Shown here: positions 409 through 20,026 of the stretch, in pieces
How the letters are laid out: each line of letters starts with the position of its first letter
How positions within the stretch are numbered: position 1 is the stretch's first letter
DNA from: a virus
Reading direction: 5' to 3' (one strand)
Length of the DNA: 20,886 nucleotides
IMG/VR virus record: IMGVR_UViG_3300031963_014949
Coordinates: 1 to 20,886 of that record
Made by a program: the position numbers and the translations under genes
The notes under the pieces: model-generated
Told to the model about the DNA's origin: nothing
The model's database searches: none
What the model saw: only the letters and a program-made list of their open reading frames with translations

Positions 409-963
409 ATGAGTTTAAGGCATATAAAATCTTTCAGTTCTCTTTTCGAAAGCACTTCGGCGGGATCCCACGACCGAGGATATTCTGATGTTCCCCCTTT
501 TAAATACGCCATAAATTTTGATCACAGGATCGGTTATTCTAAAGATGATTTTGCAAAGGATCTGAATGAGATCTACCTTAGATCTTCCTCTAAGGAAAAA
601 TCCGAAATGATGGATTTTATATTTAAGAATTCAGGGATATTAAAGATCTCACAAATACCAGAGCTTTCTCAGGAAAAAATAGATACTTTAATAAAAGACC
701 TGGAGGGGTTTTTAGATTCTAGAGCAGAGCATAATCCTAAAATGCTTCCAGACGGTTATTTGTTATGTTACGAGAATTTGAGGAAAAAGGGAAGAAGATG
801 CGACGTGTATTATTCCCCTTCTTTGAAATCTGTGAAGATCTGCTTTACTGACTCATATCCAGAGAAAGACGACGAAGTTATTTCCCTAGAAGATTTTATC
901 CCAGATTCAGTGGGAATTAATCAGAAAGAATTTTCCAATTTATTGAGTAGAATGGAAGGTTAA
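409..963 (+). CDS. Unknown small phage protein with N-terminal IKSFxxLFE motif
   Basis: A 184-residue protein of unrecognised family. The most telling part is the N-terminus: residues 6-14 read IKSFSSLFE, a short amphipathic motif like the one that opens many small proteins of T4-like and large myophages (compare the MKTYQEFIAE start of T4 internal protein III, a capsid-targeting sequence cut by the prohead protease after L/I-x-E). LFE at 12-14 would fit that cleavage rule. The rest is a soluble mixed-charge protein without membrane segments, with a stretch near residues 125-160 that looks like a small beta-rich domain. The ATG at 409 has no Shine-Dalgarno sequence, only the A/T-rich leader TATATAAAACAA. 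The gene stands alone after a terminator and ends tail to tail with the minus-strand gene at 960-1715, sharing TTAA as both stop codons. Packaging in the capsid is inference only. Confidence 0.75.
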   Translation: MSLRHIKSFSSLFESTSAGSHDRGYSDVPPFKYAINFDHRIGYSKDDFAKDLNEIYLRSSSKEKSEMMDFIFKNSGILKISQIPELSQEKIDTLIKDLEGFLDSRAEHNPKMLPDGYLLCYENLRKKGRRCDVYYSPSLKSVKICFTDSYPEKDDEVISLEDFIPDSVGINQKEFSNLLSRMEG

Positions 964-1715
964 AAAGAGGAGAGATAGTTTTTATAATTGCTAACTATAA
1001 ATTCTATAGATCTTTCTTTTATTAATTCAAAAGATATCTCATCTTCACCTTTAGATTTTTCAAGATCAACTATAATGAAGCAATCATTATATTTAGAAAA
1101 GTTTTTTACTTCTTTCTTTACGAAATCAAATATTTTTTTATCAGATTTACTGTAAACAGGGGAGGGATCTAAAAGTTCACTTAATAGGAGACCAACCTGC
1201 TCGGTTTCATCTACTGTTATGATTGAAAAGAGCCAGGAGTATATTTTTATCTTCTTATTTTTATTATTTCTAATTATCATGTAACCCCTGTCACTATTTA
1301 GTGATTTATCATTATGTATTTTGAATTCTAGGGATTTTTCTATTTCCTCTATATAGGGATTGATTTTTGTGATAAATTTTTCCAAAACCTCCAGACTGTT
1401 ATCCAAGATATAATCAACTTCTTCATTCTCTATTAGGCTAACAGTGAGATCCTTTGTTTTTTCTATTTCCTCCTGCGTCATAGCTCTTACTGTCTTGTCA
1501 CTTAGTTTTTGGAACTTTTGAAAGCTCTTAAGATCATTATAAACCCGGTTAATCTTTTGTATTTGATCTGAGTATTTTTTCTGATCTAAATCAGATTCGA
1601 CAGACTGCAAAAAATCCATTAGAACATAGTATTTGTGCTCCATATCAACAGGAGATTGTAAAAACCAGTATGGATGTAAACTCTTCATTGGTATCTGATA
1701 TAATATATAACTCAA
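960..1715 (-). CDS. Unknown minus-strand phage protein
   Basis: A 251-residue soluble protein, family not recognised. Its N-terminus is aromatic and hydrophobic (SYILYQIPMKSLHPYWFLQ), followed by a Lys/Glu-rich, probably mostly helical middle (about residues 30-130) and an alpha/beta-looking C-terminal half with strands such as NDCFIIVDLE near residue 211. No signal peptide or membrane helix is apparent. The start used is TTG at 1715, the only in-frame start that keeps the SYILYQIP segment; an ATG at 1688 would give a protein nine residues shorter. Neither has a Shine-Dalgarno sequence. The 3' end overlaps the plus-strand gene at 409-963 by four bases. It points away from the glycan operon and shares a divergent control region with it, so co-regulation or repression by the same site is possible. 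It could be a regulator or a structural accessory; nothing in the sequence decides. Confidence 0.7.
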   Translation of the reverse strand: MSYILYQIPMKSLHPYWFLQSPVDMEHKYYVLMDFLQSVESDLDQKKYSDQIQKINRVYNDLKSFQKFQKLSDKTVRAMTQEEIEKTKDLTVSLIENEEVDYILDNSLEVLEKFITKINPYIEEIEKSLEFKIHNDKSLNSDRGYMIIRNNKNKKIKIYSWLFSIITVDETEQVGLLLSELLDPSPVYSKSDKKIFDFVKKEVKNFSKYNDCFIIVDLEKSKGEDEISFELIKERSIEFIVSNYKNYLSSF

Positions 1716-1786
1716 AACAGGAATATTTTCGGATTAAAAAATAATTTTCTCGAATCTGGAAACTTTCCTTTAAAACCCTGCTAAAA

Positions 1787-1803
1787 TTGTTATCTGATAA
1801 CAA
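1787..1803. promoter_or_regulatory. Perfect 17-bp inverted repeat, operator-like
   Basis: TTGTTATC-T-GATAACAA: two perfect 8-base arms around one central base, in the 118-bp divergent gap between the minus-strand gene (start 1715) and the first glycan gene (start 1834). The one-base centre and the absence of a following T-tract argue for a dimeric-protein binding site rather than a terminator. Its left arm begins with TTGTTA, which could serve as a -35 element, with TATGAA at 1811-1816 (18-bp spacer) as a poor -10. A bound repressor would then cover the promoter of the glycan operon. The palindrome is seen directly; the operator role is inferred. Confidence 0.5.
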
Positions 1804-1833
1804 CCCGGGGTATGAATATATCTATAGTATCTA

Positions 1834-2418
1834 ATGAGCCCCTTTCTTGTAATAGCTTATTTTACCAAAGGAAACCAATACGAAGCACTCTCGGAAAATC
1901 TTAGCAGATCTTGTTCAGAGTTTGGTATACCCCTTCACTTAAGCCCCATCCAAAATCTAGGAACCTGGGAAAAGAACACGCACTTTAAAGCAAACTTTAT
2001 TTTAGATTGTTTATCAGGATTCTCCCAAAATTTAGTTTATGTTGATGTCGACGCAGTCTTTAGAAGTTACCCAACTTTATTCCAAACAATAGATTGCGAT
2101 ATTGCATATCGAACTGAGAATTTTAGATGGAGAAGAAACGAGGCATTAAGTGGAACTATCTTCCTTGCCAACAACGAAAGAACTAAAAGACTGGTTGAAA
2201 AATGGATAGAGATCAATAATGTCATAAAATCGAATAGAATGGACCCAGAAACATGGGAACAGAAAAATATGCAAAGAGCTCTCGAAGTGTGTGATGACGT
2301 GTCTTACCAGAACTTGCCACCCGAATACACATTTATCTTTGATCATTCTAAAAGATTGCATCCTGGGGTCTCTCCTGTTATTGAGCATTTTCAGGCTTCT
2401 AGAAAAGCTGATATATAA
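1834..2418 (+). CDS. Glycosyltransferase, nucleotide-diphospho-sugar transferase type (GT-A fold)
   Basis: A 194-residue cytoplasmic glycosyltransferase, first gene of the glycan operon. The sequence has the compact architecture of the nucleotide-diphospho-sugar transferase group (Nucleotid_trans/GT77-like): an N-terminal strand FLVIAYFTKG followed by a helix, then LVYVDVDAVF at about residues 67-76, with the D71-x-D73 pair that binds the metal and sugar nucleotide, a LSGTIFLANN segment near residue 105, the helix RLVEKWIE, an EQKNMQRAL motif (acceptor-side helix in this group), and a terminal VIEHFQASRK. Donor and acceptor cannot be read from sequence. There is no signal peptide or membrane anchor. 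The ATG at 1834 has an A/T-rich leader without Shine-Dalgarno sequence. It is followed 18 bases later by a second DxD transferase, which suggests that they act in sequence on one glycan. Confidence 0.8.
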   Translation: MSPFLVIAYFTKGNQYEALSENLSRSCSEFGIPLHLSPIQNLGTWEKNTHFKANFILDCLSGFSQNLVYVDVDAVFRSYPTLFQTIDCDIAYRTENFRWRRNEALSGTIFLANNERTKRLVEKWIEINNVIKSNRMDPETWEQKNMQRALEVCDDVSYQNLPPEYTFIFDHSKRLHPGVSPVIEHFQASRKADI

Positions 2419-2436
2419 AAAAAACACGATTTATAG

Positions 2437-3630
2437 ATGTCTTTTGAAAAATTTAGAAGGTTAAGAAAACCTATTGAAGATCTATTTGGAAAGATTGGAA
2501 ATACTCCAGCTCCTCCAGATGGGCCTTTTCGAAGGCCTCCCACTGTTTCCATGTCAACCGAGGAAAAGTTAGCTCTTATGGAAAAAGAAAGTAATGAAGC
2601 GAACATCCCTGTTGATTACCCTAAAATGACTACTACCATTTATAGTTATTACGCAGACTTCCAACAAAATAATTATTACAAAAATTACGCCCTCAATTTA
2701 ATTGATAGATGTAAAAAATTCGGTGTAGCATATAATATTTCGGAAAGAACTTCGAGGGGTAGCTACGGAGCAAATTGCTTAATGAAGCCAGAGTTTGTCC
2801 TTGAAAAATTAAAAGAAAGTAAAGCACCTTTAATCTGGATGGACTGTGACACTGATTTTAAATCTTCATTTTCAGAGTTTAATAATATATCTGAGGATAT
2901 TGGAATGGCAACACATAGCGGGGATTTATCCGGAATAAAAGCTTCGCCTCTTTTTTTCAACTATACTGCAGGATCCTTCAAGATAATAAGGGAATGGGTA
3001 GTTCATTGCAGATCTGCTTTTTTAAAAGGAATCCCTGAATTAGATCATGATGCTTTAAAACACTACGTTTTGCCGCATCTTAGGGGAAATTATTCGGTTT
3101 TTCTACTTTCTCAGAATTGGAATGATTTTGTACATGGAAAATATATTCATAACGGCAATTCTAGGGTTGATGGGAAAATGGAGACCCATAGGCAAGTGGG
3201 GGTAGACGATGATACTAGGGCAAGATACAGTCGAGATGTAAAAACATTTCACGTTTATTTTGAAGAAAAGTCTGAAATAGTCTTTTCTAGTGCTTTAAAA
3301 TTTCTAAATAATTTTTCAGATTATGCTCGTCTTAAATTTCATTTCGACCAGGGTTTAGAAAAAATCTCCTGTTCATCCCTAGAATTTCACAAACTCTATA
3401 CAGAAAGCGGAGGCAATACAACATTTAGCGAAAACCACTTTACCGATCATAGCCCCTTGAATGGTGAAATAATTCTAGGAGTATCTGGGGTAAAAGATAT
3501 AGAAAAAGACTGGGACTCTAAAATATCAGGTGAAATACAGGGAGGGAAAAATCCTCTCTATGTTTTAAATTATAAAGATGACGGACTAGGAAAAATAACA
3601 ATAAAGGAGGGATTTAGTTTATGGAATTAA
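2437..3630 (+). CDS. DxD glycosyltransferase with long unassigned C-terminal region
   Basis: A 397-residue protein. Residues 1-60 are polar and Pro-rich (linker-like). From about residue 66 there is a GT-A type sugar-nucleotide domain: TTIYSYYADF, a Tyr/Asn-rich helix, then APLIWMDCDTDF at 130-141, whose Asp136/Asp138/Asp140 form the DxD-type metal site, then DIGMATHSGD and a FFNYTAGSFKIIREWVVHC stretch typical of the acceptor side of this class. The last 170 residues or so (from about 230) show no motif known to me and may be a second binding domain. The gene starts after TTTATAG without Shine-Dalgarno sequence and overlaps the fucosyltransferase gene by 10 bases; an AGGAGGG inside its 3' end (3605-3611) lies 9 bases before that start, suggesting translational coupling. 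Enzyme class is fairly sure; the sugar transferred is unknown. Confidence 0.72.
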   Translation: MSFEKFRRLRKPIEDLFGKIGNTPAPPDGPFRRPPTVSMSTEEKLALMEKESNEANIPVDYPKMTTTIYSYYADFQQNNYYKNYALNLIDRCKKFGVAYNISERTSRGSYGANCLMKPEFVLEKLKESKAPLIWMDCDTDFKSSFSEFNNISEDIGMATHSGDLSGIKASPLFFNYTAGSFKIIREWVVHCRSAFLKGIPELDHDALKHYVLPHLRGNYSVFLLSQNWNDFVHGKYIHNGNSRVDGKMETHRQVGVDDDTRARYSRDVKTFHVYFEEKSEIVFSSALKFLNNFSDYARLKFHFDQGLEKISCSSLEFHKLYTESGGNTTFSENHFTDHSPLNGEIILGVSGVKDIEKDWDSKISGEIQGGKNPLYVLNYKDDGLGKITIKEGFSLWN

Positions 3631-4475
3631 TCAAAGGATTCGGTTTACCGTTCCCCGCGGAGTACTCTTCGTGTTCTAATTTACCCCCTAAATCTTTTTC
3701 ATGGACAACAGGTGATGCTGATATTCACGTTTATATAGACAATAGAATTTTTGACGGACTAGAAACCCCTAGGCATGAATTTAAATTCGGTTGGTTGTGT
3801 GAATCTCGAGAAATTGCTATAGAAATTTATAGTGCTGTTTATCAGAATCCAGGAAGATATAAAAACAAGTACGCTGGCATTTTTACCTGCGAGGAGTTTT
3901 TAATTCAGTCGGATCCTGAATTTTTCTTTTATGCCCCACCGGGATCTAATCTTCCTTGGACTAAACCGGATGAAATGCGAATTTATCAGAAGAGCAAAAA
4001 ATGCTCAATGATATGTTCACCTAAAGCAAGAACTGATGGACATAAATTCAGATTAGAGGTAGCTGACAAGTTAAAAGAATCTCTCGATCTTTTTGGGGGA
4101 GCACACAACTCGCCTAGAATTGGTGATGGCTCTGGACCAAATGGGGATTGGTGGCGATCGAAACTTCCAGCTTTGAAAGATTACATGTTTTCCGTGGTTT
4201 TTGAGAATGCTGTCTATGAAAAATATTACACCGAAAAAATAACCGATTGTTTTGCTACCGGGACAATCCCTGTTTACTGGGGGTCTAGAAAAGTTTGCGA
4301 GGATTTTAATCCCGATGGTATAATTTTCTATAACGATTTAAAATCATTAGATGATTTAACCCACGATCTTTACAATTCGATGTTAGATAGTGTTATTGAT
4401 AATTTAGAGAGAGTTAAAAAGTTAGAATCTGCTGACGATATCATATTTAATAAAATAAAATCTATTTGTGGATAA
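3621..4475 (+). CDS. GT10 family fucosyltransferase (alpha-1,3/1,4-FucT-like)
   Basis: A 284-residue enzyme predicted to transfer L-fucose from GDP-fucose to a glycan. The C-terminal half carries the GT10 signature in order: YMFSVVFEN at 188-196, YYTEKITDCFATGTIPVYWG at 202-221, then EDFNP at 227-231. This matches the GDP-fucose-binding block of bacterial FucTs such as those of Helicobacter pylori (FEN...YVTEK...IPIYWG...DFNP). The N-terminal part contains KFGWLCES near residue 55, where FucTs have a similar strand. Length is short but within range; no membrane segment or heptad repeats are present, unlike some LPS fucosyltransferases. It is one of the few genes here with a good Shine-Dalgarno sequence. 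Its donor pathway, Fcl and Gmd, is encoded at the end of the same operon, which strongly supports the assignment. It overlaps the next gene by 8 bases. Confidence 0.83.
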   Translation: MELIKGFGLPFPAEYSSCSNLPPKSFSWTTGDADIHVYIDNRIFDGLETPRHEFKFGWLCESREIAIEIYSAVYQNPGRYKNKYAGIFTCEEFLIQSDPEFFFYAPPGSNLPWTKPDEMRIYQKSKKCSMICSPKARTDGHKFRLEVADKLKESLDLFGGAHNSPRIGDGSGPNGDWWRSKLPALKDYMFSVVFENAVYEKYYTEKITDCFATGTIPVYWGSRKVCEDFNPDGIIFYNDLKSLDDLTHDLYNSMLDSVIDNLERVKKLESADDIIFNKIKSICG

Positions 4476-5301
4476 GTCGTTAAAATTAAATTGGCATAAA
4501 AGTTCAAATTTTGGGGATCAGCTTAATCCGTATTTAGTTAAAAAAATGTGGGGATTCAATTCTTTTAAAATTAATGAAGGAAGTAAGGACCCACACGTCA
4601 TGATGATAGGATCGATATTAAACGAAGCAAATTCTCAGACCCTAGTTTTAGGATCAGGATTCGTAGGGGTTAATAGGTTTTTTGAGGGTGTTCCTAGGAT
4701 AATTACTGTGAGAGGAAAAAAGACCCTCCAGATGGTTAATGACGTAGGGGTAAAAACTGACGAAATTAGTTTAGGTGATCCAGCAATTCTTATACCTGAT
4801 TACTTTACACCATCCCCAGGAATCGACAAATACGATATAGGTATAATTCCCCATATAATAGACATGGAGTATGCTCAAAAAATATTCGGAAGAAAAAGAG
4901 GTTCTAGGATAATAGATTTAAGACTAGTTGGAGAAACGTTTGATGAAATGGAATCAATCATAAATCAAATATGCTCATGTCGATGTATTATTTCCAGCAG
5001 CTTACATGGATTAATCATAGCGCATACTTACGGAATACCAGGGATTTGGTGTGAATTTTCTGATATGGTTATAGGGGAGGGATTTAAATTCAAAGATTAT
5101 ATGTCAGCCCATGGTGTGGATGAAGATTCTGTGCCTTATTTAAATCTAAAAGAACCTAATAGCTTTCTCACTATACCGGAAATTAAAACCCTTGCTAAAA
5201 ATGTTATAGTAGATTCCAATCACGAAAGAGAAAAAATGAGAGCTATCATTAGCAACGTTTATGATATTATTTGTTCTAATAAAAAAATGTACCTTCTATA
5301 G
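4468..5301 (+). CDS. Polysaccharide pyruvyl transferase-like protein
   Basis: A 277-residue cytoplasmic protein with the layout of the polysaccharide pyruvyl transferase family (CsaB/ExoV/WcaK group; PF04230). Seen in order: NFGDQLNPYLVKK at 14-26 (the opening loop), VLGSGF near 60, a VRGKKTLQMV segment at 81-90, LGDPAIL at 102-108, and the diagnostic SSSLHGLIIAHTYGIPGIW at 176-194, whose SLHG His180 is a conserved feature. The family puts a pyruvate ketal from phosphoenolpyruvate onto a sugar, giving the glycan a negative charge; some members are sugar transferases instead, so the exact reaction is open. The start is GTG at 4468, inside the 3' end of the fucosyltransferase gene; no better start is evident. 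The stop abuts the next ATG, so the two are translationally coupled. Confidence 0.78.
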   Translation: MDKSLKLNWHKSSNFGDQLNPYLVKKMWGFNSFKINEGSKDPHVMMIGSILNEANSQTLVLGSGFVGVNRFFEGVPRIITVRGKKTLQMVNDVGVKTDEISLGDPAILIPDYFTPSPGIDKYDIGIIPHIIDMEYAQKIFGRKRGSRIIDLRLVGETFDEMESIINQICSCRCIISSSLHGLIIAHTYGIPGIWCEFSDMVIGEGFKFKDYMSAHGVDEDSVPYLNLKEPNSFLTIPEIKTLAKNVIVDSNHEREKMRAIISNVYDIICSNKKMYLL

Positions 5302-5955
5302 ATGGAAAAACTAGATCTTAAAAAAATAACAGCCGTTGTGATAGATGGAAGGGGTTATTTAGAAGAGAGATATAACAGATTTAAAGAGATAGTTTCCTTT
5401 ATGCAAAAGCATATAGAATTTGATTCTATAAAGATGTTTTTGGTTGAAGATCCTAAAATTCCCGGAATTGAATTTAATAAGATAAACAGATTTGGAATTT
5501 CGGATTATTCTAAATTTTGTTTGCACGAATTGACAAATTATATTAGCACTGATTTCTGTTTAATATTTCAAGACGATGGTTTTGTTTTAAATCCTGGTTA
5601 CTGGAGTGATGAATTTTATATGTATGATTATATTGGATCCCCTTGGCCTCTTTATATAGGATGGCCAGAGGAGGGAAAGCAAGTAGGAAACGGAGGATTC
5701 TCATTAAGGAGTAAAAGGTTATTAGAATATTCAAAAACATTAACACACCACACGACGGAAAATGAGGACACATTCTTACTTGATGATAGAAAGGCATTAG
5801 ATGATGCTGGTATTAAAATAGCTCCTGTGGAGATAGCAAGAAAATTTTCCATAGAAAATCATATGGATAGTGATCACAGTATTCATAATTGTTTTGGATT
5901 TCATGCTAAGCATTTATTAGAGGAGTGTTTGGAAATAATTAGAAAAGAAAAATGA
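5302..5955 (+). CDS. DUF5672 family glycosyltransferase-like protein
   Basis: A 217-residue protein matching the DUF5672 pattern found in carbohydrate gene clusters and thought to be glycosyltransferase-related. Visible marks: a first strand ITAVVIDGRG at 9-18, FCLIFQDDGFVL at 85-96 (the Asp-Asp pair where GT-A enzymes have DxD), the YDYIGSPWP block at 108-116, VGNGGFSLRSKRLLE at 128-142 and ENEDTF at 153-158. These last three blocks in this order are the family's hallmark. It is slightly shorter than the typical member, and the whole length is accounted for by the domain. It begins directly after the previous stop (TAG ATG) and overlaps the next gene by ATGA, placing it firmly within the operon. 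Donor and acceptor are unknown. Confidence 0.78.
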   Translation: MEKLDLKKITAVVIDGRGYLEERYNRFKEIVSFMQKHIEFDSIKMFLVEDPKIPGIEFNKINRFGISDYSKFCLHELTNYISTDFCLIFQDDGFVLNPGYWSDEFYMYDYIGSPWPLYIGWPEEGKQVGNGGFSLRSKRLLEYSKTLTHHTTENEDTFLLDDRKALDDAGIKIAPVEIARKFSIENHMDSDHSIHNCFGFHAKHLLEECLEIIRKEK

Positions 5956-6680
5956 AAGTAATGGCATATTATCCCATTCATTATGGGACTGAGTATTTAG
6001 AATCTTCTATAAAATCTATAGACGATCAGGTAGATAAAATATTAATTTTATATTCTGCTACCCCCAGCTATGGACACTTAACTGATATAGAATGTCCAGA
6101 ATCTGAAAATGATATAAAAGATGTTGCATTTTCAGCTTCTTCTAAAATAGTATGGAAGAAGATAGAAGCTTATAACGAGGGAAATCATAGAAATATTGGA
6201 TTTCAAGAATCTAATGATTATGATATAATGTTAACATTAGATTCTGATGAGGTATGGAATCCAACATCCCTTGATAAATGTATAAAAGAAACATATGACG
6301 GCGAAGCTTGGAGAAGAAATATTACGGGATTTGTACATTTTTGGAAATCCTTTAACTGGGTATGTAGGGATGGATTTCAGCCTGGTAGAATTTTCAATCT
6401 TAGGAGAAATAACAATATAGAGGTTCCTATTGAAGGGACAATATATCATTTTGGATATGCTCAGTCTAATAAAATCATAGATTATAAATTTGAAATTCAT
6501 GGCCATAAGAATGAAATAAAACCCGGATGGCTAGAAAACACGTATTATAAATGGGAGCCAGGAATGAGGGATTTACATCCTACTGGCGGTGCATGGGATC
6601 AAGCTATTCCTTTTGATAAGAATTCATTACCAGATATACTTAAATCCCATCCTAATTACGATAAAGAAATAATAAAATAA
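5952..6680 (+). CDS. GT2-like glycosyltransferase
   Basis: A 242-residue protein whose first half looks like a GT-A glycosyltransferase of the GT2 type: MKVMAYYPIHYGTEYLESSI at the start, a helix with HRNIGFQES at 79-87, then YDIMLTLDSDEVW at 90-102 with the Asp97-Ser-Asp99-Glu100 metal site. The second half is rich in Trp, Tyr and His (FVHFWKSFNWVC, IYHFGYAQSNK, EIHGHKNEIKPGW, then LHPTGGAWDQAIP) and resembles the acceptor-binding part of small bacterial transferases that also carry a conserved His pattern. No membrane segment or signal peptide is present. Translation is coupled to the previous gene by ATGA and the next gene follows after 5 bases. Sugar specificity cannot be inferred. Confidence 0.75.
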   Translation: MKVMAYYPIHYGTEYLESSIKSIDDQVDKILILYSATPSYGHLTDIECPESENDIKDVAFSASSKIVWKKIEAYNEGNHRNIGFQESNDYDIMLTLDSDEVWNPTSLDKCIKETYDGEAWRRNITGFVHFWKSFNWVCRDGFQPGRIFNLRRNNNIEVPIEGTIYHFGYAQSNKIIDYKFEIHGHKNEIKPGWLENTYYKWEPGMRDLHPTGGAWDQAIPFDKNSLPDILKSHPNYDKEIIK

Positions 6681-6685
6681 AAAAT

Positions 6686-7264
6686 ATGGACATGGAAAAA
6701 ATTTTATCAGAGATACTCAAAGTTGGTAAAGATCAATTAGATTCTATTGATTTAAATGATTACAGAAAGATTACGGATTCTATTAACACCCCTAAAGAGT
6801 GGTTTTATATGCAATCCGGGGTAGAGCATTACAGATTGCTCGCATTTATAAGTGGACTTTTTGAAAACGAAAGCTTATTAGATATAGGAACATACCAGGG
6901 GAGTTCTTCCATAGCAATGTCATATAATTCTAAAAATTCAATAACTTCTTTTGATGTTAATCATCAACCTGAAATTTCTAAAATTAAAATACCAAATATT
7001 AATTATAAAATAGGTAACGTTTTGGAATTTACTGATTTAATTATCAAATCTCCTTTTATATTATTAGATACCTATCACGATGGTTCTTTTGAGGCTGAGT
7101 TCATGGAAGAAATGATAAAAATTAATTACAGAGGAATTGTTTTATTCGATGACATACACCTTAGCGGACCTATGGAAACATTTTGGAATTCTATTGATTC
7201 TGAAAAGTATGATTTAACTAGTAAGGGTCATTATACAGGTACAGGTTTAGTTTATTTTAAATAA
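6686..7264 (+). CDS. Class I SAM-dependent methyltransferase
   Basis: A 192-residue protein with a Rossmann-fold methyltransferase core. Motif I is LLDIGTYQGSSS at 64-75 (SAM-binding Gly loop), the acidic end of the second strand is SFDVNHQ at 88-94, and later strands show FILLDTYHDG at 124-133 and GIVLFDDIHLSG at 150-161. The last resembles the D-D-x-H metal-associated segment of the Methyltransf_24 / cephalosporin-hydroxylase-like group found in glycan clusters. It probably O-methylates a sugar or a small group on the glycan. An ATG two codons after the first (MDMEK) is an equally possible start. It has no Shine-Dalgarno sequence, only an A-run leader. It is one of two methyltransferases in the operon, which suggests two different methylation positions. 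Confidence 0.75.
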   Translation: MDMEKILSEILKVGKDQLDSIDLNDYRKITDSINTPKEWFYMQSGVEHYRLLAFISGLFENESLLDIGTYQGSSSIAMSYNSKNSITSFDVNHQPEISKIKIPNINYKIGNVLEFTDLIIKSPFILLDTYHDGSFEAEFMEEMIKINYRGIVLFDDIHLSGPMETFWNSIDSEKYDLTSKGHYTGTGLVYFK

Positions 7265-7275
7265 AATTCATTTAT

Positions 7276-7788
7276 ATGGGAGAATTAACAATGGGGCATA
7301 GATCATACGGGAATGTTACAAGAAGGGGAGTTCATAATTCGGTTACTATTGGAAAATACTGCTCGATAGCTTCAGGATTGATAGTCGATGGAGGATTTGG
7401 ACATAATACCGAGTTTATATCAACTTATCCATTTAGTGTAATGTTTGATAAATGTGGACATTTAACGGGTCATCCTGTTTGGAAAGGAGATGTCATAATA
7501 GGAAACGATGTTTGGATAGGGGAGGACTGCTTAATAATGAGCGGGGTAACAATCGGTGATGGTGCAGTTATAGGAGCAAGATCTATCGTAACAAAAGATA
7601 TTGACCCATATTCTATAAATGTAGGATCACCTTCTCGCAGGGTAAAAAAAAGATTTACGGAAGAACAAATATCGGATCTTTTAAAAATAAAATGGTGGGA
7701 TTGGGATGAGGATAAAATTTTAGAAAATTCACATCTTTTAATGGGCAAAGAAATAAACCATTTTATAGATAAACATAAAATATATTAA
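7276..7788 (+). CDS. Hexapeptide-repeat acyltransferase (CatB/Vat-like, left-handed beta helix)
   Basis: A 170-residue acetyltransferase-like protein of the xenobiotic/CatB subgroup. The isoleucine-patch hexads are easy to see: VTIGKYCSIASGLIVDG at 23-39 and, after the insertion loop, VIIGNDVWIGEDCLIMSGV at 73-91, then TIGDGAVIGARSIVTKD at 92-108. The loop holds GHNTEFISTYPF (42-53), where His43 is in the position of the catalytic His of CatB and Vat enzymes. The C-terminal INVGSPSRRVKKRF and KWWDWDEDKI are standard for the group. In glycan clusters such enzymes O- or N-acetylate sugars from acetyl-CoA and act as trimers; drug acetylation is the other known role but does not fit this operon. 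An alternative ATG lies at 7291. The leader is TTTAT with no Shine-Dalgarno sequence. Confidence 0.87.
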   Translation: MGELTMGHRSYGNVTRRGVHNSVTIGKYCSIASGLIVDGGFGHNTEFISTYPFSVMFDKCGHLTGHPVWKGDVIIGNDVWIGEDCLIMSGVTIGDGAVIGARSIVTKDIDPYSINVGSPSRRVKKRFTEEQISDLLKIKWWDWDEDKILENSHLLMGKEINHFIDKHKIY

Positions 7789-7801
7789 TAAAAAAAAGTA
7801 T

Positions 7802-8500
7802 ATGCAAGAATCACAAAACAAAGATGTTCAATTGATAAAATATCTTGATATCGAAATAATCATTACTGAACAAAGTGCTAAATACCACGGAAGCTTTACC
7901 GGGGGAAAAGTCTACGAAAGCGATGTTGTGGAAAGATTTTTAAATGATATACCAGAAAATGGCACCGTATTAGATATTGGAGCCTGCACAGGTTCGTATG
8001 CCATGTTGGATTTAATAAAATCTGGTATAAAAATACATTCATTTGAACCTTCTAGGGTATATCACGAGCTGGTTAAAAACATATCTATAAACGGAAGTAA
8101 AACTATGTGTTATAACTATGCGGTGTCTGATAAAGAGGGTATATTTGACTTTAATGAAATAGTAGAAGACTTACCCATTGCACTATCTATGCTAGGTGGT
8201 AAACCTGCTTCCCATAAAAATTATAGAACGTTTGAGGTTAAAACTGTTACGATTGATAGTTTAAATTTAAACCCTGATATCATTAAAATAGATACAGAGG
8301 GTCATGAGCTTATGGTTTTAAAGGGAGGAGAAAAAACAATTAACACTTTACATCCTATTATTTATTGCGAATATAGTCAGGAAAATACATCTCAATATGG
8401 ATACAATGCTGACGATTCTTTAAATCTATTAAAAGAATGGGGTTATGAGATTGAATTAATTAATGGTAACATTATAGCCAAATACCCAGTACATAATTAA
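7802..8500 (+). CDS. FkbM family methyltransferase
   Basis: A 232-residue SAM-dependent O-methyltransferase of the FkbM type (Methyltransf_21). Seen: motif I VLDIGACTGSY at 56-66, HSFEPSRVYHEL at 79-90 (the FEP acidic strand typical of FkbM proteins), YNYAVSDKEGIFDF at 104-117, VKTVTIDSL at 146-154, and the diagnostic DIIKIDTEGHELMVLKGGE at 159-177 followed by HPIIYCEYSQ. This family methylates hydroxyls of polyketides and is frequent in capsule, O-antigen and S-layer glycan clusters, where it methylates sugars. Length is normal for the family. The gene lies 13 bases after the acyltransferase gene and 14 bases before GDP-fucose synthase, with an A-run leader. Its substrate is presumably the fucose-containing glycan; this last point is inference. 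Confidence 0.86.
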   Translation: MQESQNKDVQLIKYLDIEIIITEQSAKYHGSFTGGKVYESDVVERFLNDIPENGTVLDIGACTGSYAMLDLIKSGIKIHSFEPSRVYHELVKNISINGSKTMCYNYAVSDKEGIFDFNEIVEDLPIALSMLGGKPASHKNYRTFEVKTVTIDSLNLNPDIIKIDTEGHELMVLKGGEKTINTLHPIIYCEYSQENTSQYGYNADDSLNLLKEWGYEIELINGNIIAKYPVHN

Positions 8501-8514
8501 ATCGTTAATATTTT

Positions 8515-9450
8515 ATGAAGTATAAATTAGCATTATTTGGATCCTCTGGTTTAGTTGGTTCAAATATTTTAAAAAAAATAGACACGGATAAGTATGAAGT
8601 GCTATCACCAATAAGAAAGGATTTAGATCTCTTGGATGAGAAAAAGGTACTAGATTGGTTTTTAAAAAATCGTGTAGATTATGTTATTCTAGCTGCTGCC
8701 AGAGTTGGAGGTATAGTTGCAAATGCAACATATCCCACAGAATATCTTTACGAGAATCTAACTATCCAGAATAATGTGATTATGTCTGCTTTTAAAAGTG
8801 GTGTTGATAATCTTGTTTTTCTTGGATCATCTTGCATTTATCCTAGAGAATGTCAACAACCAATAAAGGAAGAGTATTTGTTAACTGGGCCATTAGAAAA
8901 GACCAATAAATCATATGCTCTAGCAAAGATAGCTGGCATTCAATTGTGCGATTCAATTAGAGAGCAGTATGGTAAAAAATATTATTCTTTAATGCCTTGT
9001 AATTTATATGGACCTGGTGATAATTTTAATCATGAAGCTTCCCACGTAATCCCTGGGATGATGATTAAAATTGATAGAGCTAAAGAAGCTGGATCTGAAG
9101 AATTAAATCTGCTGGGTACAGGTAGACCATTTAGGGAATTCTTATTCATAGAGGATTTAGCAGATGGTGTAATTTTTGTGATGGAAAATCATAAAGGAGA
9201 GGATGGAATCATTAACTTAGGTTCAGGTGAGGAAGTTACCATCAAACAACTTGCGGAAATACTAGTTAAAGAAATGGATTACGAGGGAAAAATAATTTTT
9301 AATACAAACGGACCAGACGGAACCCCTAGAAAGGTTTTGGATAATTCTAAGATAAACTCAATTGGATGGAAATCTAAAATAAAACTAGAAGATGGTATAA
9401 AAAGAACTGTTAAGTGGTTCTATGAAAATAAGGAATCAATAAGAATATGA
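8515..9450 (+). CDS. fcl: GDP-L-fucose synthase (GDP-4-keto-6-deoxymannose epimerase/reductase)
   Basis: A 311-residue short-chain dehydrogenase catalysing the last steps to GDP-L-fucose: 3,5-epimerisation of GDP-4-keto-6-deoxy-D-mannose and NADPH-dependent reduction. The N-terminus has the Rossmann loop GSSGLVGS at 9-16; [10 protein letters not shown] at 61-70 is family-specific. The catalytic set is complete: Ser106 and Cys107 in GSSCIYP (epimerisation Cys), Tyr134 and Lys138 in SYALAKIAG, and His177 in ASHVIP (the family's epimerase His). NLYGPGDNF at 163-171 and [12 protein letters not shown] at 207-218 complete the pattern. Length equals bacterial WcaG/Fcl. It overlaps Gmd by ATGA, in the order fcl-gmd, the reverse of the Escherichia coli order. 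With Gmd it makes the donor for the GT10 enzyme upstream. All active-site residues are present, so the enzyme should be functional. Confidence 0.95.
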
Positions 9451-10454
9451 AAGTAGCATTAATAACGGGGGTAAATGGACAGGATGGATCTTACCTAGCA
9501 GAACTCCTCCTAGAGAAAGGATATTTTGTTCACGGAACTATTAGAAGATCTTCTTCTTTTAATTCTTCCAGAATTGAACATTTTAGAGATCATCCTAATT
9601 TTAAAAGACATTATATAGATTTAACAGATTACGGGAGTGTTTCCAGTGTTATTTCGAAAATACAACCGGAAGAGGTTTATAATTTAGGTGCACAAAGTCA
9701 TGTTAAAATTTCTTTCGAGATTCCTAATTACACTGGACAGGTTGATGCAATAGGAACATTGAATGTGTTAGAAGCGATTCGCACTCATTCCCCGAGTTCC
9801 AAACTTTATCAAGCTTCGACCTCTGAGCTTTATGGTAAGGTTCAGGAAACTCCTCAAAAAGAAACTACCCCCTTTTATCCAAGATCTCCCTATGGAGTAG
9901 CAAAGCTCTATGGTTTTTGGATTATTAAAAACTATAGAGAATCCTATGATATGTTTGCATGCAATGGAATTCTGTTCAACCACACATCTCCTAGAAGAGG
10001 AGAAAACTTCGTAGAGAAAAAAATAATTCAAACTCTTTGTGATATCAAAAGAGGAAGAACTGAAATATTAACTTTAGGCAATTTATCTGCCAAAAGAGAT
10101 ATAGGGCATGCTAAAGAATATGTTGAGGGAATGTGGAGAATGCTACAGCAAGAGAAGCCTGATGATTTTGTTTTAGCCACTGGAGTAACATACTCTATTA
10201 AGGAAATGGTGGAAATGGTTTGTAAAAAAATAGGGATAGAAATTTACTGGGAGCCGCAAGAAGTAGGGGAGATAGGCATTGACAGAAAAACTAACAAGAT
10301 AATTGTTGGAGTAGATCCTAAATATTATAGACCAGCTGAAGTTGAACTACTCTTAGGCGATGCTACAAAGGCAAAGGATATTTTAGGATGGGAACCTAAA
10401 CTGGATCTTTCACAGATATTTGATGAGATGATAGAAGAAACTATGAAAAGCTAA
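9447..10454 (+). CDS. gmd: GDP-mannose 4,6-dehydratase
   Basis: A 335-residue NADP-dependent extended SDR that converts GDP-D-mannose into GDP-4-keto-6-deoxy-D-mannose, the first committed step to GDP-L-fucose and also to GDP-rhamnose and perosamine. Seen: [19 protein letters not shown] from residue 4 (the Gly loop of Gmd), [10 protein letters not shown] at 30-39 (NADP-phosphate-binding Arg residues), [13 protein letters not shown] at 79-91, catalytic STSELYG at 124-130 (Glu127), SPYGVAKLY at 147-155 with Tyr149 and Lys153, [13 protein letters not shown] at 177-189 and [18 protein letters not shown] near the end. Length is close to the bacterial enzymes. It is the last gene of the glycan operon; its stop lies directly beside the stop of the convergent minus-strand gene. 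GDP-mannose itself must come from the host because no mannose-1-phosphate guanylyltransferase is in view. Confidence 0.96.
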
Positions 10455-10679
10455 TTATTTAGATACTATTTCATTAGCTTTAAGAAGCTGATCCAGATCC
10501 TTCATTTTATAGCTAGTTTGTCCTGGTGAGCCCCATTTATTTTGATCTCCCCAATTAATGAATCCCTGATTATTTAAATGCTTTCCTGAATTATAAGAAA
10601 AATCGTATTTTCCCTCTGCTTTGGCAGCCTCTGAAAATTCGTCCATGTTAGATATATTTTTGTAACCGTATTTTTCCAT
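10455..10679 (-). CDS. Unknown small minus-strand protein
   Basis: A 74-residue polar protein, no family recognised. It is rich in Lys, Asn, Gly and aromatic residues, with a turn-rich centre (NQGFINWGDQNKWGSPGQTS at 37-56) flanked by helices (EFSEAAKAEG and DLDQLLKANEIVSK). It has no membrane segment, Cys pair or DNA-binding motif. It lies 2 bases downstream of the DUF5872/DUF5824-like gene and is surely co-transcribed with it from the region near 11258-11312. The purine-rich leader on its strand (AAAGAAAAAGAAATA) is a little closer to a ribosome site than most here. Its stop is immediately adjacent to the stop of gmd, with no terminator between the two converging genes. Confidence 0.65.
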   Translation of the reverse strand: MEKYGYKNISNMDEFSEAAKAEGKYDFSYNSGKHLNNQGFINWGDQNKWGSPGQTSYKMKDLDQLLKANEIVSK

Positions 10680-10681
10680 TA

Positions 10682-11257
10682 TTATTTCTTTTTCTTTCTA
10701 TTTGCCTTAGCTCTTTGGTAAAGCTTTTTGTCATGCATTTTAGTTGTTTTACCCCCCGTTACAAAAGAATTAACTCTAGCCATTGCCCATTGTTGAGGCG
10801 TAGTTCCAGGCACGTGTCCGGTTTTCCATGCTGCATAACCCTTTCTCCAGACCTGCTTTAATATTCCTAACGGAAATCCTGTTTTGTCGGACTTGTTCTT
10901 TAGTGCCTTGTGAACCGGACTTGTAATCTTATCAACGGATTCATTGATAAAATCCTCGTTTTCGTTGATTAATTCCATGAATGCCTCGAGAAATAATTCC
11001 TCCCCCTCGTTCATAGCTTCATCAAACTGGTTGAAATTTTTTAGTAGCTTACTTTCTCCAAACATTTTCTTGTATTTACTTGTATATTTACTAGGCTTTG
11101 TGTCAACCTTTTTACCAACTCCAGCTTTTCTTGACTTATAATCAGCGTCCCATTCCTGATATGCGCTAGAGTCGTCGTCAGCTTTTTTCCCATGTTTTTT
11201 GATTTCCTTCTTCATCACATTGGGATTCTTTGTCAAATATTTTTTAGGAAGCTTCAT
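10682..11257 (-). CDS. Basic phage protein with DUF5872-like and DUF5824-like segments
   Basis: A 191-residue, strongly basic protein in three parts. Residues 1-68 (KKHGKKADDDSSAYQEWDAD, then TKPSKYTSKYKKMFGE) resemble DUF5872, a short Lys-rich phage and viral domain. Residues 70-108 hold LLKNFNQFDEAMNE, similar to the 'I/L-K-x-F-x-x-F-x-E' motif of the gene at 409, and then an acidic stretch with INE and FINES. Residues 115-170 match the phage domain DUF5824: KTGFPLGILKQVWRKGYAAW followed by KTGHVPGTTPQQWAMARVNSFVTGG. The C-terminus is a Lys/Arg tail. Family names are from memory and need a search. The ATG at 11257 is preceded by TATAAATA on its strand. Positive charge and an L/I-x-E-rich linker would suit a protein packaged with DNA and cut by a prohead protease, but this is speculation. 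Confidence 0.75.
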   Translation of the reverse strand: MKLPKKYLTKNPNVMKKEIKKHGKKADDDSSAYQEWDADYKSRKAGVGKKVDTKPSKYTSKYKKMFGESKLLKNFNQFDEAMNEGEELFLEAFMELINENEDFINESVDKITSPVHKALKNKSDKTGFPLGILKQVWRKGYAAWKTGHVPGTTPQQWAMARVNSFVTGGKTTKMHDKKLYQRAKANRKKKK

Positions 11258-13088: not shown

Positions 13089-13108
13089 GTTAAGATAATG
13101 TATTGTAT

Positions 13109-19240: not shown

Positions 19241-20026
19241 ATGTCTGTACAGAATATTCAAGAATCAAATATTGAAAGAGCCCAGCATTTCTTGGGTGTT
19301 GTTGTGGATAACAAAGATCCGGAATTTAGGGCAAGATGTAAAGTTAAGGTTTTTGGAGTATTTGACGATGTTGCAGATACGGATCTACCATGGGCGTTCC
19401 AAAGATTTGATATTTCATTTGGTGACAATGGTGGATCTGGAAGGGTTAGTATACCTAAATTAGGTGCAGTTGTCCATGTCCAATTCAATAACGGGAACTA
19501 CTATGCCCCCGAATACAAAGCAGTACAAGAATTATCTTCCGATTTAATAGAAGAAATAAAAGCATCTTATGAAGGTGCTCATTCTCTAATCTATGACGGA
19601 ATAGAACAGCTAAAAATATATTACACTGTTGCTAAAGGACTCGTAATAGATTTAAAAGAGTCAACTGTGGTAATTTCTAATGATAATTCAATAACAATAA
19701 CACATGCTGGCCAAACATCTACCCTTGAATTTAGAGGTGGTAAAATTACAGAGTATGCAAATTCTGAAATAGAAAGCACTGCAGTAACTAGAATTAAACA
19801 AAGCAGCAACGAAGTTTGGGCAGACGGTAAAACAACAAAGCTTGGTCATTCCCCTGTTTATTCTGCAGTTTTAGCGGAACCTTTATGGATGTTTTTAAAA
19901 CAACTCGCAGCAGCGGTAGATGCTAAAGTTCCTTCCTGTCCTGGGTGTATGGCTACCCTTGCAGAAAGCTACGAACAGCTCTCTACGTCCGATGTGGTTA
20001 AGTTAACTAAGAGTAATGAGCAATAA
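19241..20026 (+). CDS. gp5-like baseplate hub/spike protein (OB-fold, no lysozyme domain)
   Basis: A 261-residue protein equivalent to the T4 gp5 / VgrG family part that joins the hub to the membrane-piercing spike. Residues 16-90 form the N-terminal OB-fold: HFLGVVVDNKDP at 16-27, ARCKVKVFGVFD at 31-42, TDLPWAFQRF at 47-56 and GSGRVSIPKLGAVVHVQFNNG at 65-85, the classic 'G-R-V-R-V-x-G ... D-L-P-W ... P-x-x-G' layout. Residues 118-200 are beta-strand repeats (LVIDLKESTVVISND, ITITHAGQTS, TRIKQSSNEVWADGKTTKLG), fit for the start of a trimeric beta-prism. A C-terminal helical part follows, with a CPGC motif at 233-236. The lysozyme domain of T4 gp5 is missing, as in most non-T4 myophages. It overlaps the next gene by 11 bases. 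Confidence 0.83.
   Translation: MSVQNIQESNIERAQHFLGVVVDNKDPEFRARCKVKVFGVFDDVADTDLPWAFQRFDISFGDNGGSGRVSIPKLGAVVHVQFNNGNYYAPEYKAVQELSSDLIEEIKASYEGAHSLIYDGIEQLKIYYTVAKGLVIDLKESTVVISNDNSITITHAGQTSTLEFRGGKITEYANSEIESTAVTRIKQSSNEVWADGKTTKLGHSPVYSAVLAEPLWMFLKQLAAAVDAKVPSCPGCMATLAESYEQLSTSDVVKLTKSNEQ

Follow-up and report, generated by a model that had tools for sequence, protein, structure and literature searches.

Our analysis of a 20,886-base stretch of viral DNA, which is the IMG/VR virus record IMGVR_UViG_3300031963_014949 itself and is called the window below, did reveal an island of 11 co-directional genes (1834-10454, plus strand) that are separated by short gaps or overlap and adjoin phage baseplate genes. 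The island encodes a glycosyltransferase of the GT10 family together with Gmd (GDP-mannose 4,6-dehydratase) and Fcl, a homologue of GDP-L-fucose synthase. We propose, with a probability of about 0.6, that this is a swappable island which makes GDP-L-fucose from the GDP-mannose of the host and whose GT10 enzyme adds L-fucose to a glycan, the acceptor being most likely a protein of the virion. A previous sequence-only reading of the same DNA had placed a fucose branch at 3621-10454; its three genes are encoded by the reading frames it had assigned to them, but the span was too narrow, as the island starts at 1834.

Gmd, Fcl and GT10 genes of the island

The Gmd protein exceeded the cut-off of the NCBIfam model TIGR01472 (493.6 bits, cut-off 415) and matched a GMD structure of the PDB with an E-value of 4.1e-127. 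It contains the motifs STSE at residue 124 and YGVAK at residue 149, and thereby T125, E127, Y149 and K153, which we take to be the catalytic Thr, Glu, Tyr and Lys; the last three are present in 37/37 distinct homologues, in which the first site is either Thr or Ser. Fcl had its best PDB match to GDP-L-fucose synthase (E 1.2e-86), followed by GDP-mannose 3,5-epimerase as the next class (E 1.9e-20). Its motifs SSCIYP at residue 105, YALAK at 134 and SHVIP at 176 include S106, C107, Y134, K138 and H177, that is, the epimerase Cys/His and the reductase Ser-Tyr-Lys, whose roles are described for the human GDP-L-fucose synthase in the relevant part of PMC12362431. Cys, His, Tyr and Lys were found in all 24 distinct homologue reading frames (23 viral, 1 bacterial). 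The complete active sites that the sequence-only reading had claimed for both enzymes were thus recovered with every named motif and catalytic residue. Judged from these features, Gmd and Fcl would provide a complete route to GDP-L-fucose within the gene run of the island. Among 50,697 annotated phage records, 75 contained a match to the window Fcl at E 1e-30 or better, and 57 of these are Synechococcus phages.

The ratio of nonsynonymous to synonymous substitution rates (dN/dS) among relatives was 0.09-0.19 for GT10 (5 pairs), 0.05-0.07 for Fcl (3 pairs) and 0.03-0.09 for Gmd (10 pairs), where all pairs given share at least 75% amino acid identity, the window is represented in the Gmd pairs alone, and dS often approaches or exceeds 1. 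In these pairs the estimates point to purifying selection on all three genes. One relative has a Gmd frame with an in-frame TAA (G010:C1:21154-22158); the GT10 and the Fcl-like gene of the same record are both distant.

Its profile score, sequence match and predicted fold all place the product of 3621-4475, a protein of 284 amino acids, in the GT10 family of glycosyltransferases. It scored 38.5 bits against PF00852 (cut-off 23.9), matched FucT of Helicobacter pylori with an E-value of 1.6e-12, and has the motifs FEN at residue 194, YYTEK at 202 and YWG at 219. Its AlphaFold2 model, built on 32 sequences from the window and from viruses, has a mean predicted local distance difference test score (pLDDT) of 92.8, and the Foldseek search with this model gave nothing but fucosyltransferases in rows 1-16, all presumably GT10 members. 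With VIA-align the best structure was human FUT9 (Z 15.3, 240 aligned residues, root-mean-square deviation 3.9); another GT-B enzyme reaches Z 14.2, so that the fold by itself is not decisive for GT10. Profile, FucT match and structure prediction with Foldseek together bear out the earlier assignment of this product to GT10. N196, Y202, E205 and K206 align with FucT N240, Y246, E249 and K250, of which we take N240, Y246 and K250 to be residues of the donor site. Mutants of FucT E249 are described as virtually inactive, and a review passage names Glu95 as a candidate for the base and counts Glu249 as another catalytic Glu (both in the part of PMC4202792 that deals with this enzyme). E61 of the window enzyme, kept in 51/52 alignment rows and situated in a domain that the residue-level alignment to FucT does not reach, is probably the counterpart of Glu95. 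Because Gmd and Fcl are encoded in the same gene run and the donor-site Tyr (Y202) is kept, we consider the enzyme a probable L-fucosyltransferase.

The nearest GT10 protein from a bacterial genome was 43% identical (22 loci, one pattern scan). On a contig from a Chitinophagaceae metagenome-assembled genome (L126), GT10 was matched twice and DUF5672 once, next to an epimerase-like gene on the same contig and a partial Gmd at its end; the contig may belong to a phage and have been binned with a bacterium, or it may represent a bacterial origin of such islands.

The features of the island and of its immediate surroundings are as follows.

3621-4475, plus strand: GT10 glycosyltransferase, probable L-fucosyltransferase (PF00852, FucT match, AlphaFold2/Foldseek)
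8515-9450, plus strand: Fcl, GDP-L-fucose synthase homologue (GDP-4-keto-6-deoxymannose epimerase/reductase; PDB match to GDP-L-fucose synthase, active-site residues)
9447-10454, plus strand: Gmd, GDP-mannose 4,6-dehydratase, right edge of the island (TIGR01472, PDB GMD match)
1834-2418, plus strand: glycosyltransferase, Nucleotid_trans (PF03407, 26.1 bits, cut-off 22), left edge of the island, kept in relatives
2437-3630, plus strand: GT-A-fold glycosyltransferase with a C-terminal domain of no assigned kind, directly upstream of GT10 (AlphaFold2 model)
4468-5301, plus strand: polysaccharide pyruvyl transferase family protein (PF04230, 51.0 bits, cut-off 25.3)
5302-5955, plus strand: DUF5672 protein, present in the islands of many relatives (PF18922, 75.3 bits, cut-off 24.4)
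5952-6680, plus strand: GT2-like protein, weak (PF00535, 16.3 bits, under the cut-off of 23.3)
6686-7264, plus strand: methyltransferase-like protein, weak (PF13489, 16.2 bits, under the cut-off of 27)
7276-7788, plus strand: hexapeptide-repeat acetyltransferase, CatB/Vat-like (PF00132, 45.1 bits, cut-off 27)
7802-8500, plus strand: FkbM-family methyltransferase (PF05050, 70.5 bits, cut-off 22.7; TIGR01444, 80.6 bits, cut-off 37.7)
1756-1833, plus strand: conserved non-coding leader with the inverted repeat TTGTTAT/ATAACAA (alignment of 14 sequences)
960-1715, minus strand: reading frame left of the island (open reading frame list)
10455-11257, minus strand: reading frames right of the island (open reading frame list)
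10682-11257, minus strand: DUF5824 protein, with a further match to the end of the PHROG family called cytidyltransferase

The acetyltransferase scored 149.1 bits against the NCBIfam Vat model, far under its cut-off of 300, and we therefore do not claim a resistance function for it. For the 2437 protein no Pfam family was found over cut-off, and a PDB search returned nothing at E 1 with an alignment profile and one meaningless match (E 0.34) with the single protein. In its AlphaFold2 model (pLDDT 84.4) residues 64-245 matched best to the capsid glycosyltransferase 2p72 of chlorovirus PBCV-1 (Z 14.1, 167 aligned residues, root-mean-square deviation 3.3). Since other GT-A enzymes gave Z-scores of 11.4-12.6, the model indicates a GT-A fold and not a specific function. 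A match to alpha-L-fucosidase (E 0.0092, in 3/15 relatives) was set aside as weak.

The island in related contigs

Baseplate families of PHROG were matched at 19241-20026, and tail proteins are encoded in the right half of the window. The protein encoded at 13103 has relatives in 31 phage records, with identities of 26-36% among the 20 matches listed; the tally comprises phages of Prevotella, Tenacibaculum, Chryseobacterium, Sphingomonas and Flavobacterium as well as six uncultured ones. From these relatives and the baseplate matches we conclude that the window comes from a large tailed phage, and the relatives of the 13103 protein suggest that its host is perhaps a member of the Bacteroidota.

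A 219-kb contig (IMGVR_UViG_3300008110_010000, G001) and an 87-kb contig encode the island genes at 99-100% amino acid identity and share the flanks of the window. The same island was found at the same site, between the same flanks, in relatives with about 50-80% amino acid identity. After omission of fourteen loci that repeated others, the order at the left edge (the minus-strand 960 gene, the PF03407 gene, one or more 2437-like genes, GT10) was observed in 15 distinct contig groups (L007, L011/L012, L013, L014, L015, L084-L088, L094, L095/L096, L097, L098 and L099), so that a 2437-like gene is present upstream of GT10 in 15/15. Fcl and Gmd were encoded on the same contig in 11 of the 15 groups; of the other four, L085 and L088 stop right behind GT10, L094 has Fcl without Gmd, and L099, together with L030, consists of fragments only. 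The island thus has kept edges, with two GT-A-like genes followed by GT10 on the left and Fcl-Gmd on the right, and the genes between them are swapped. Ten interior proteins from four relatives were scanned and comprised GT17-family, GT2-like and Glyco_trans_1_2 transferases, an extra epimerase, FkbM and other methyltransferases, and one protein without a match; at the position of the window's pyruvyl transferase, four relatives (L084, L086, L087, L097) have a gene for 212 amino acids.

The first island gene is preceded by a leader of about 78 bases that is conserved across 14 aligned sequences (the window and 13 relatives). A strict leader pattern occurred once each in 4/10 records searched and not at all in the other six, and the 219-kb record contains a single strong copy. 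We considered an RNA leader or riboswitch and dropped this idea: no Rfam family reached its gathering score for the leader of the window and six relatives (a lax search gave only matches far below gathering), RNAalifold returned zero shared pairs, and the window leader folds no better than shuffled sequences (z -0.22). In the absence of an RNA family and of a consensus fold, the leader is likelier a promoter or operator than an RNA. A role as late promoter was discarded as well: the leader contains TATGAATA, but the 219-kb record has 25 copies of this string, equal to the number for TATAAATA, and the string was not found before the baseplate genes looked at. Scans for sigma-70 promoters and terminators found no more than in shuffles.

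Donor sugar, acceptor and alternative explanations

According to our proposal, Gmd would convert host GDP-mannose to GDP-4-keto-6-deoxymannose, which Fcl would epimerise and reduce to GDP-L-fucose. The GT10 enzyme would then transfer L-fucose onto a glycan that the products of the two GT-A-like genes immediately upstream prime or extend, the next genes of the island would add pyruvyl, acetyl and methyl groups, and the acceptor would most likely be one of the virion proteins of the phage, glycosylated in the cytoplasm of the host. The sequence-only reading had stated that the phage makes and attaches fucose itself; the phage origin, the full GDP-L-fucose route and the GT10 enzyme agree with this statement, but membership in GT10 does not fix the donor. 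As for the acceptor, an initiating sugar-phosphate transferase (PF02397) and a flippase (PF13440) were each detected in 0/11 GT10-bearing IMG/VR records, and in 9 and 14, respectively, of the 14 control genomes. This speaks against a complete lipid-linked pathway of the phage's own, and it fits either direct glycosylation of a phage protein or decoration of a glycan built by the host. Direct fucosylation of proteins is described for the human GT10 enzymes FUT10 and FUT11 in the portion of PMC11949838 devoted to them. As acceptor we would favour the virion, followed by the host surface.

It was further claimed that a donor pathway plus a matching transferase in one phage operon is much more specific than the single glycosyltransferases often seen in phages. 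This combination is not unique. We searched 28 records, chosen as GT10 or baseplate relatives and thus not random, with the three families, counting as a strong pair a Gmd over cut-off with an Fcl of at least 400 bits. GT10 was over cut-off in 22/28 records, and half of these (11/22) had the strong pair as well, including the isolates S-SKS1 and S-SRM01, which with the other records rules out uniqueness. Among the IMG/VR records with GT10 over cut-off, the proportion was 7/10; the exceptions were a record with weaker Gmd and Fcl (G002; 405.1 and 238.9 bits), the above-mentioned G010 with its distant GT10 and Fcl and its stop in Gmd, and a record with no Gmd (G011). In the annotated collection 4/12 had the pair, namely S-SKS1, S-SRM01 and two uncultured phages, one of them with the genes far apart. 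These 12 were examined out of 22 GT10-matching phage records, the other ten being nine apparent duplicates or near copies and the short marine contig AG-345-D19.

Several observations weigh against the role proposed here. Fcl scored 402.3 bits against the NCBIfam equivalog NF047922, under the curated cut-off of 500, and we therefore call it a homologue that would work like GDP-L-fucose synthase; the same cut-off was exceeded in 0/28 phage or virus records and in 4/14 cellular control genomes. None of 13 records had a GDP-mannose pyrophosphorylase above the cut-off of TIGR01479 (there were two weak partial matches), so that the route apparently relies on GDP-mannose from the host. The island is not universal at its site, since three relatives (L027, L028 and L039) have no cassette gene beside the baseplate block, and these records, which are fragments, were negative for GT10, Gmd and Fcl. 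With a leader of its own, the island need not be co-expressed with the baseplate genes. The GT10-bearing records are fragments too, and a flippase and other components may be encoded beyond their ends or be supplied by the host. Finally, phage GT10 genes were also found with other donor genes. A GDP-mannose 3,5-epimerase was encoded near GT10 in 7/12 records of the annotated collection (L004, L006, L077-L081; cyanophage and marine virus loci); the S-SM2 copy, annotated in its record as a UDP-glucose 4-epimerase, matched the solved epimerase 2c59 with an E-value of 1.3e-84 and shares 70-83% identity with the other six. Such a neighbourhood suggests GDP-L-galactose as the donor. In a third context, seen in 12 viral loci (L109-L112, L114-L118, L121, L124 and L125; e.g. 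L110:10763-12361), GT10 is followed first by a short DegT-like protein of about 200 amino acids, which scored 54.8 and 44.6 bits against PF01041 in the two cases tested and gave no PDB match, and then by Gmd; perosamine would be our guess for the sugar. Further GT10 loci had none of these three donor gene sets within the stretch at hand. GT10 membership by itself does therefore not prove that fucose is the sugar.

The residue equivalent to FucT Tyr246 differs between these contexts. Among the 52 alignment rows it is Tyr in 39, Met in 11 and Phe in 2, and Met occupies it in 11/11 non-redundant tree rows with Gmd and DegT. Since the 11 Met rows form one supported clade, they count as one evolutionary event; the tree was made with a quick method, in which L002 and L005 have very long branches and an unsure placement. 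It is tempting to regard phage GT10 as a donor-switchable scaffold that is served by Gmd-Fcl, by the 3,5-epimerase, or by Gmd and DegT (giving a 4-amino or 4-keto 6-deoxy sugar, with a presumed donor-site change from Tyr to Met), within a swappable island that builds a variable fucosylated virion coat like that of chloroviruses. We offer this wider idea tentatively, as possible rather than probable.

Bacterial clusters for surface polysaccharides typically contain pyruvyl transferase, acetyltransferase and GDP-fucose genes, and relatives of the cassette genes were found in bacterial contigs. The authors of S-SCSM1 class a comparable set under cell wall synthesis and modification in the passage on these genes (PMC9602691). 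The island might accordingly alter the surface of the host (lipopolysaccharide core, O-antigen or capsule), e.g. to exclude other phages, by using the lipid-linked pathway, flippase and polymerase of the host and leaving the virion unglycosylated. That an initiating transferase or flippase was detected in none of the 11 records speaks against this explanation, though the host could supply both. Beyond this, our results fit both acceptors alike, and we regard alteration of the host surface as the less likely reading. Alternatively, the GT10 enzyme could use a GDP-sugar other than L-fucose (e.g. GDP-L-galactose), with Gmd and Fcl serving another transferase of the island. The epimerase near GT10 in seven of the twelve phage records and the consistent Met in the Gmd and DegT rows are in line with this, as are bacterial GT10 relatives that lie near epimerase-like genes in some contigs. 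However, the donor genes of the window are Gmd and Fcl, without a DegT match in the island, its Fcl matches GDP-L-fucose synthase much better than it matches the 3,5-epimerase, the Tyr is kept, and the nearest GT10s are mostly accompanied by Gmd-Fcl, which together make another donor improbable. A third possibility, namely that the island has decayed or that mis-assembly has attached host DNA here, and that its genes are of no use to the phage, can be set aside as very improbable: GDP-fucose genes are common in bacteria, as in our controls, and the Gmd of G010 has its in-frame stop, but the 219- and 87-kb contigs at 99-100% and the relatives at about 50-80% share the same flanks, and dN/dS is far below 1.

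Relation to known viral fucose genes

Similar gene sets are already known from cyanophages and algal viruses. S-SKS1 (HQ633071) has Gmd, Fcl and a GT10 annotated as "alpha-1,4 fucosyltransferase" within some 5 kb of one co-directional run of sugar genes. It differs from the window in belonging to another phage lineage, in having Gmd-Fcl first in order, and in its GT10, which is encoded by a gene for 190 amino acids, is 29% identical over 146 residues and has Val in the E61 column. S-SRM01 (MW015081; Kyanoviridae) encodes Gmd and Fcl in the same region as an FkbM methyltransferase and a GT10 of 38% identity but, unlike the window, also has genes named NodZ-like and alpha-1,2-fucosyltransferase. 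S-SCSM1 was published with Gmd, Fcl and three fucosyltransferases, given as a protein O-fucosyltransferase, an alpha-1,2 enzyme and NodZ, and GT10 is not named in that passage (PMC9602691). A table of PMC8226683 gives gmd, fcl and rfbE for viral contigs from single cells of Chlorobium. The chlorovirus PBCV-1 makes its own GDP-L-fucose by GMD (a118r) and GMER (a295l) and has fucose in the glycan of its major capsid protein, according to the parts of PMC7019647 and PMC4691112 concerned; its capsid glycosyltransferase is also the closest structure to the 2437 model. In contrast, PBCV-1 infects algae and its predicted fucosyltransferase is a domain of A111/114R. The alpha-1,3-fucosyltransferase of H. 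pylori resembles the window enzyme in its aligned donor-site residues and in its structure (2nzy, Z 12.9, 232 aligned residues), but the two share 13-21% identity over the fold, and the N-terminal half of the 284-residue window protein has no FucT sequence match.

In the open-licence literature, with subscription papers mostly outside, we did not find the fucose island of this lineage, its architecture of edges and interior, or the three donor contexts of phage GT10. If our proposal is true, a lineage of large phages distinct from the cyanophages produces its own GDP-L-fucose and varies the glycan that it decorates, and autonomous glycosylation by viruses, well described in chloroviruses, would extend to bacteriophages. 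The three GDP-sugar gene sets found with one phage transferase family would be a natural series for studying donor choice in GT10, and they are a warning against reading "fucosyltransferase" from the family name alone. Four core groups of glycosyltransferases have been described in large phages, the moraphages, with hosts that are mostly Bacteroidota (PMC12619734); the main text of that paper does not contain the word "fucose".

Two minor observations concern the surroundings of the island. In the three relatives without cassette genes, which share 64-67% identity in the 13103 protein, the DUF5824 and 10455 genes stand in swapped order. The 219-kb contig G001 encodes, near position 21,000 (locus L067:1-1833, minus strand), a fused protein of about 660 amino acids in which cupin, sugar nucleotidyltransferase-like and kinase-like domains can be discerned by eye.

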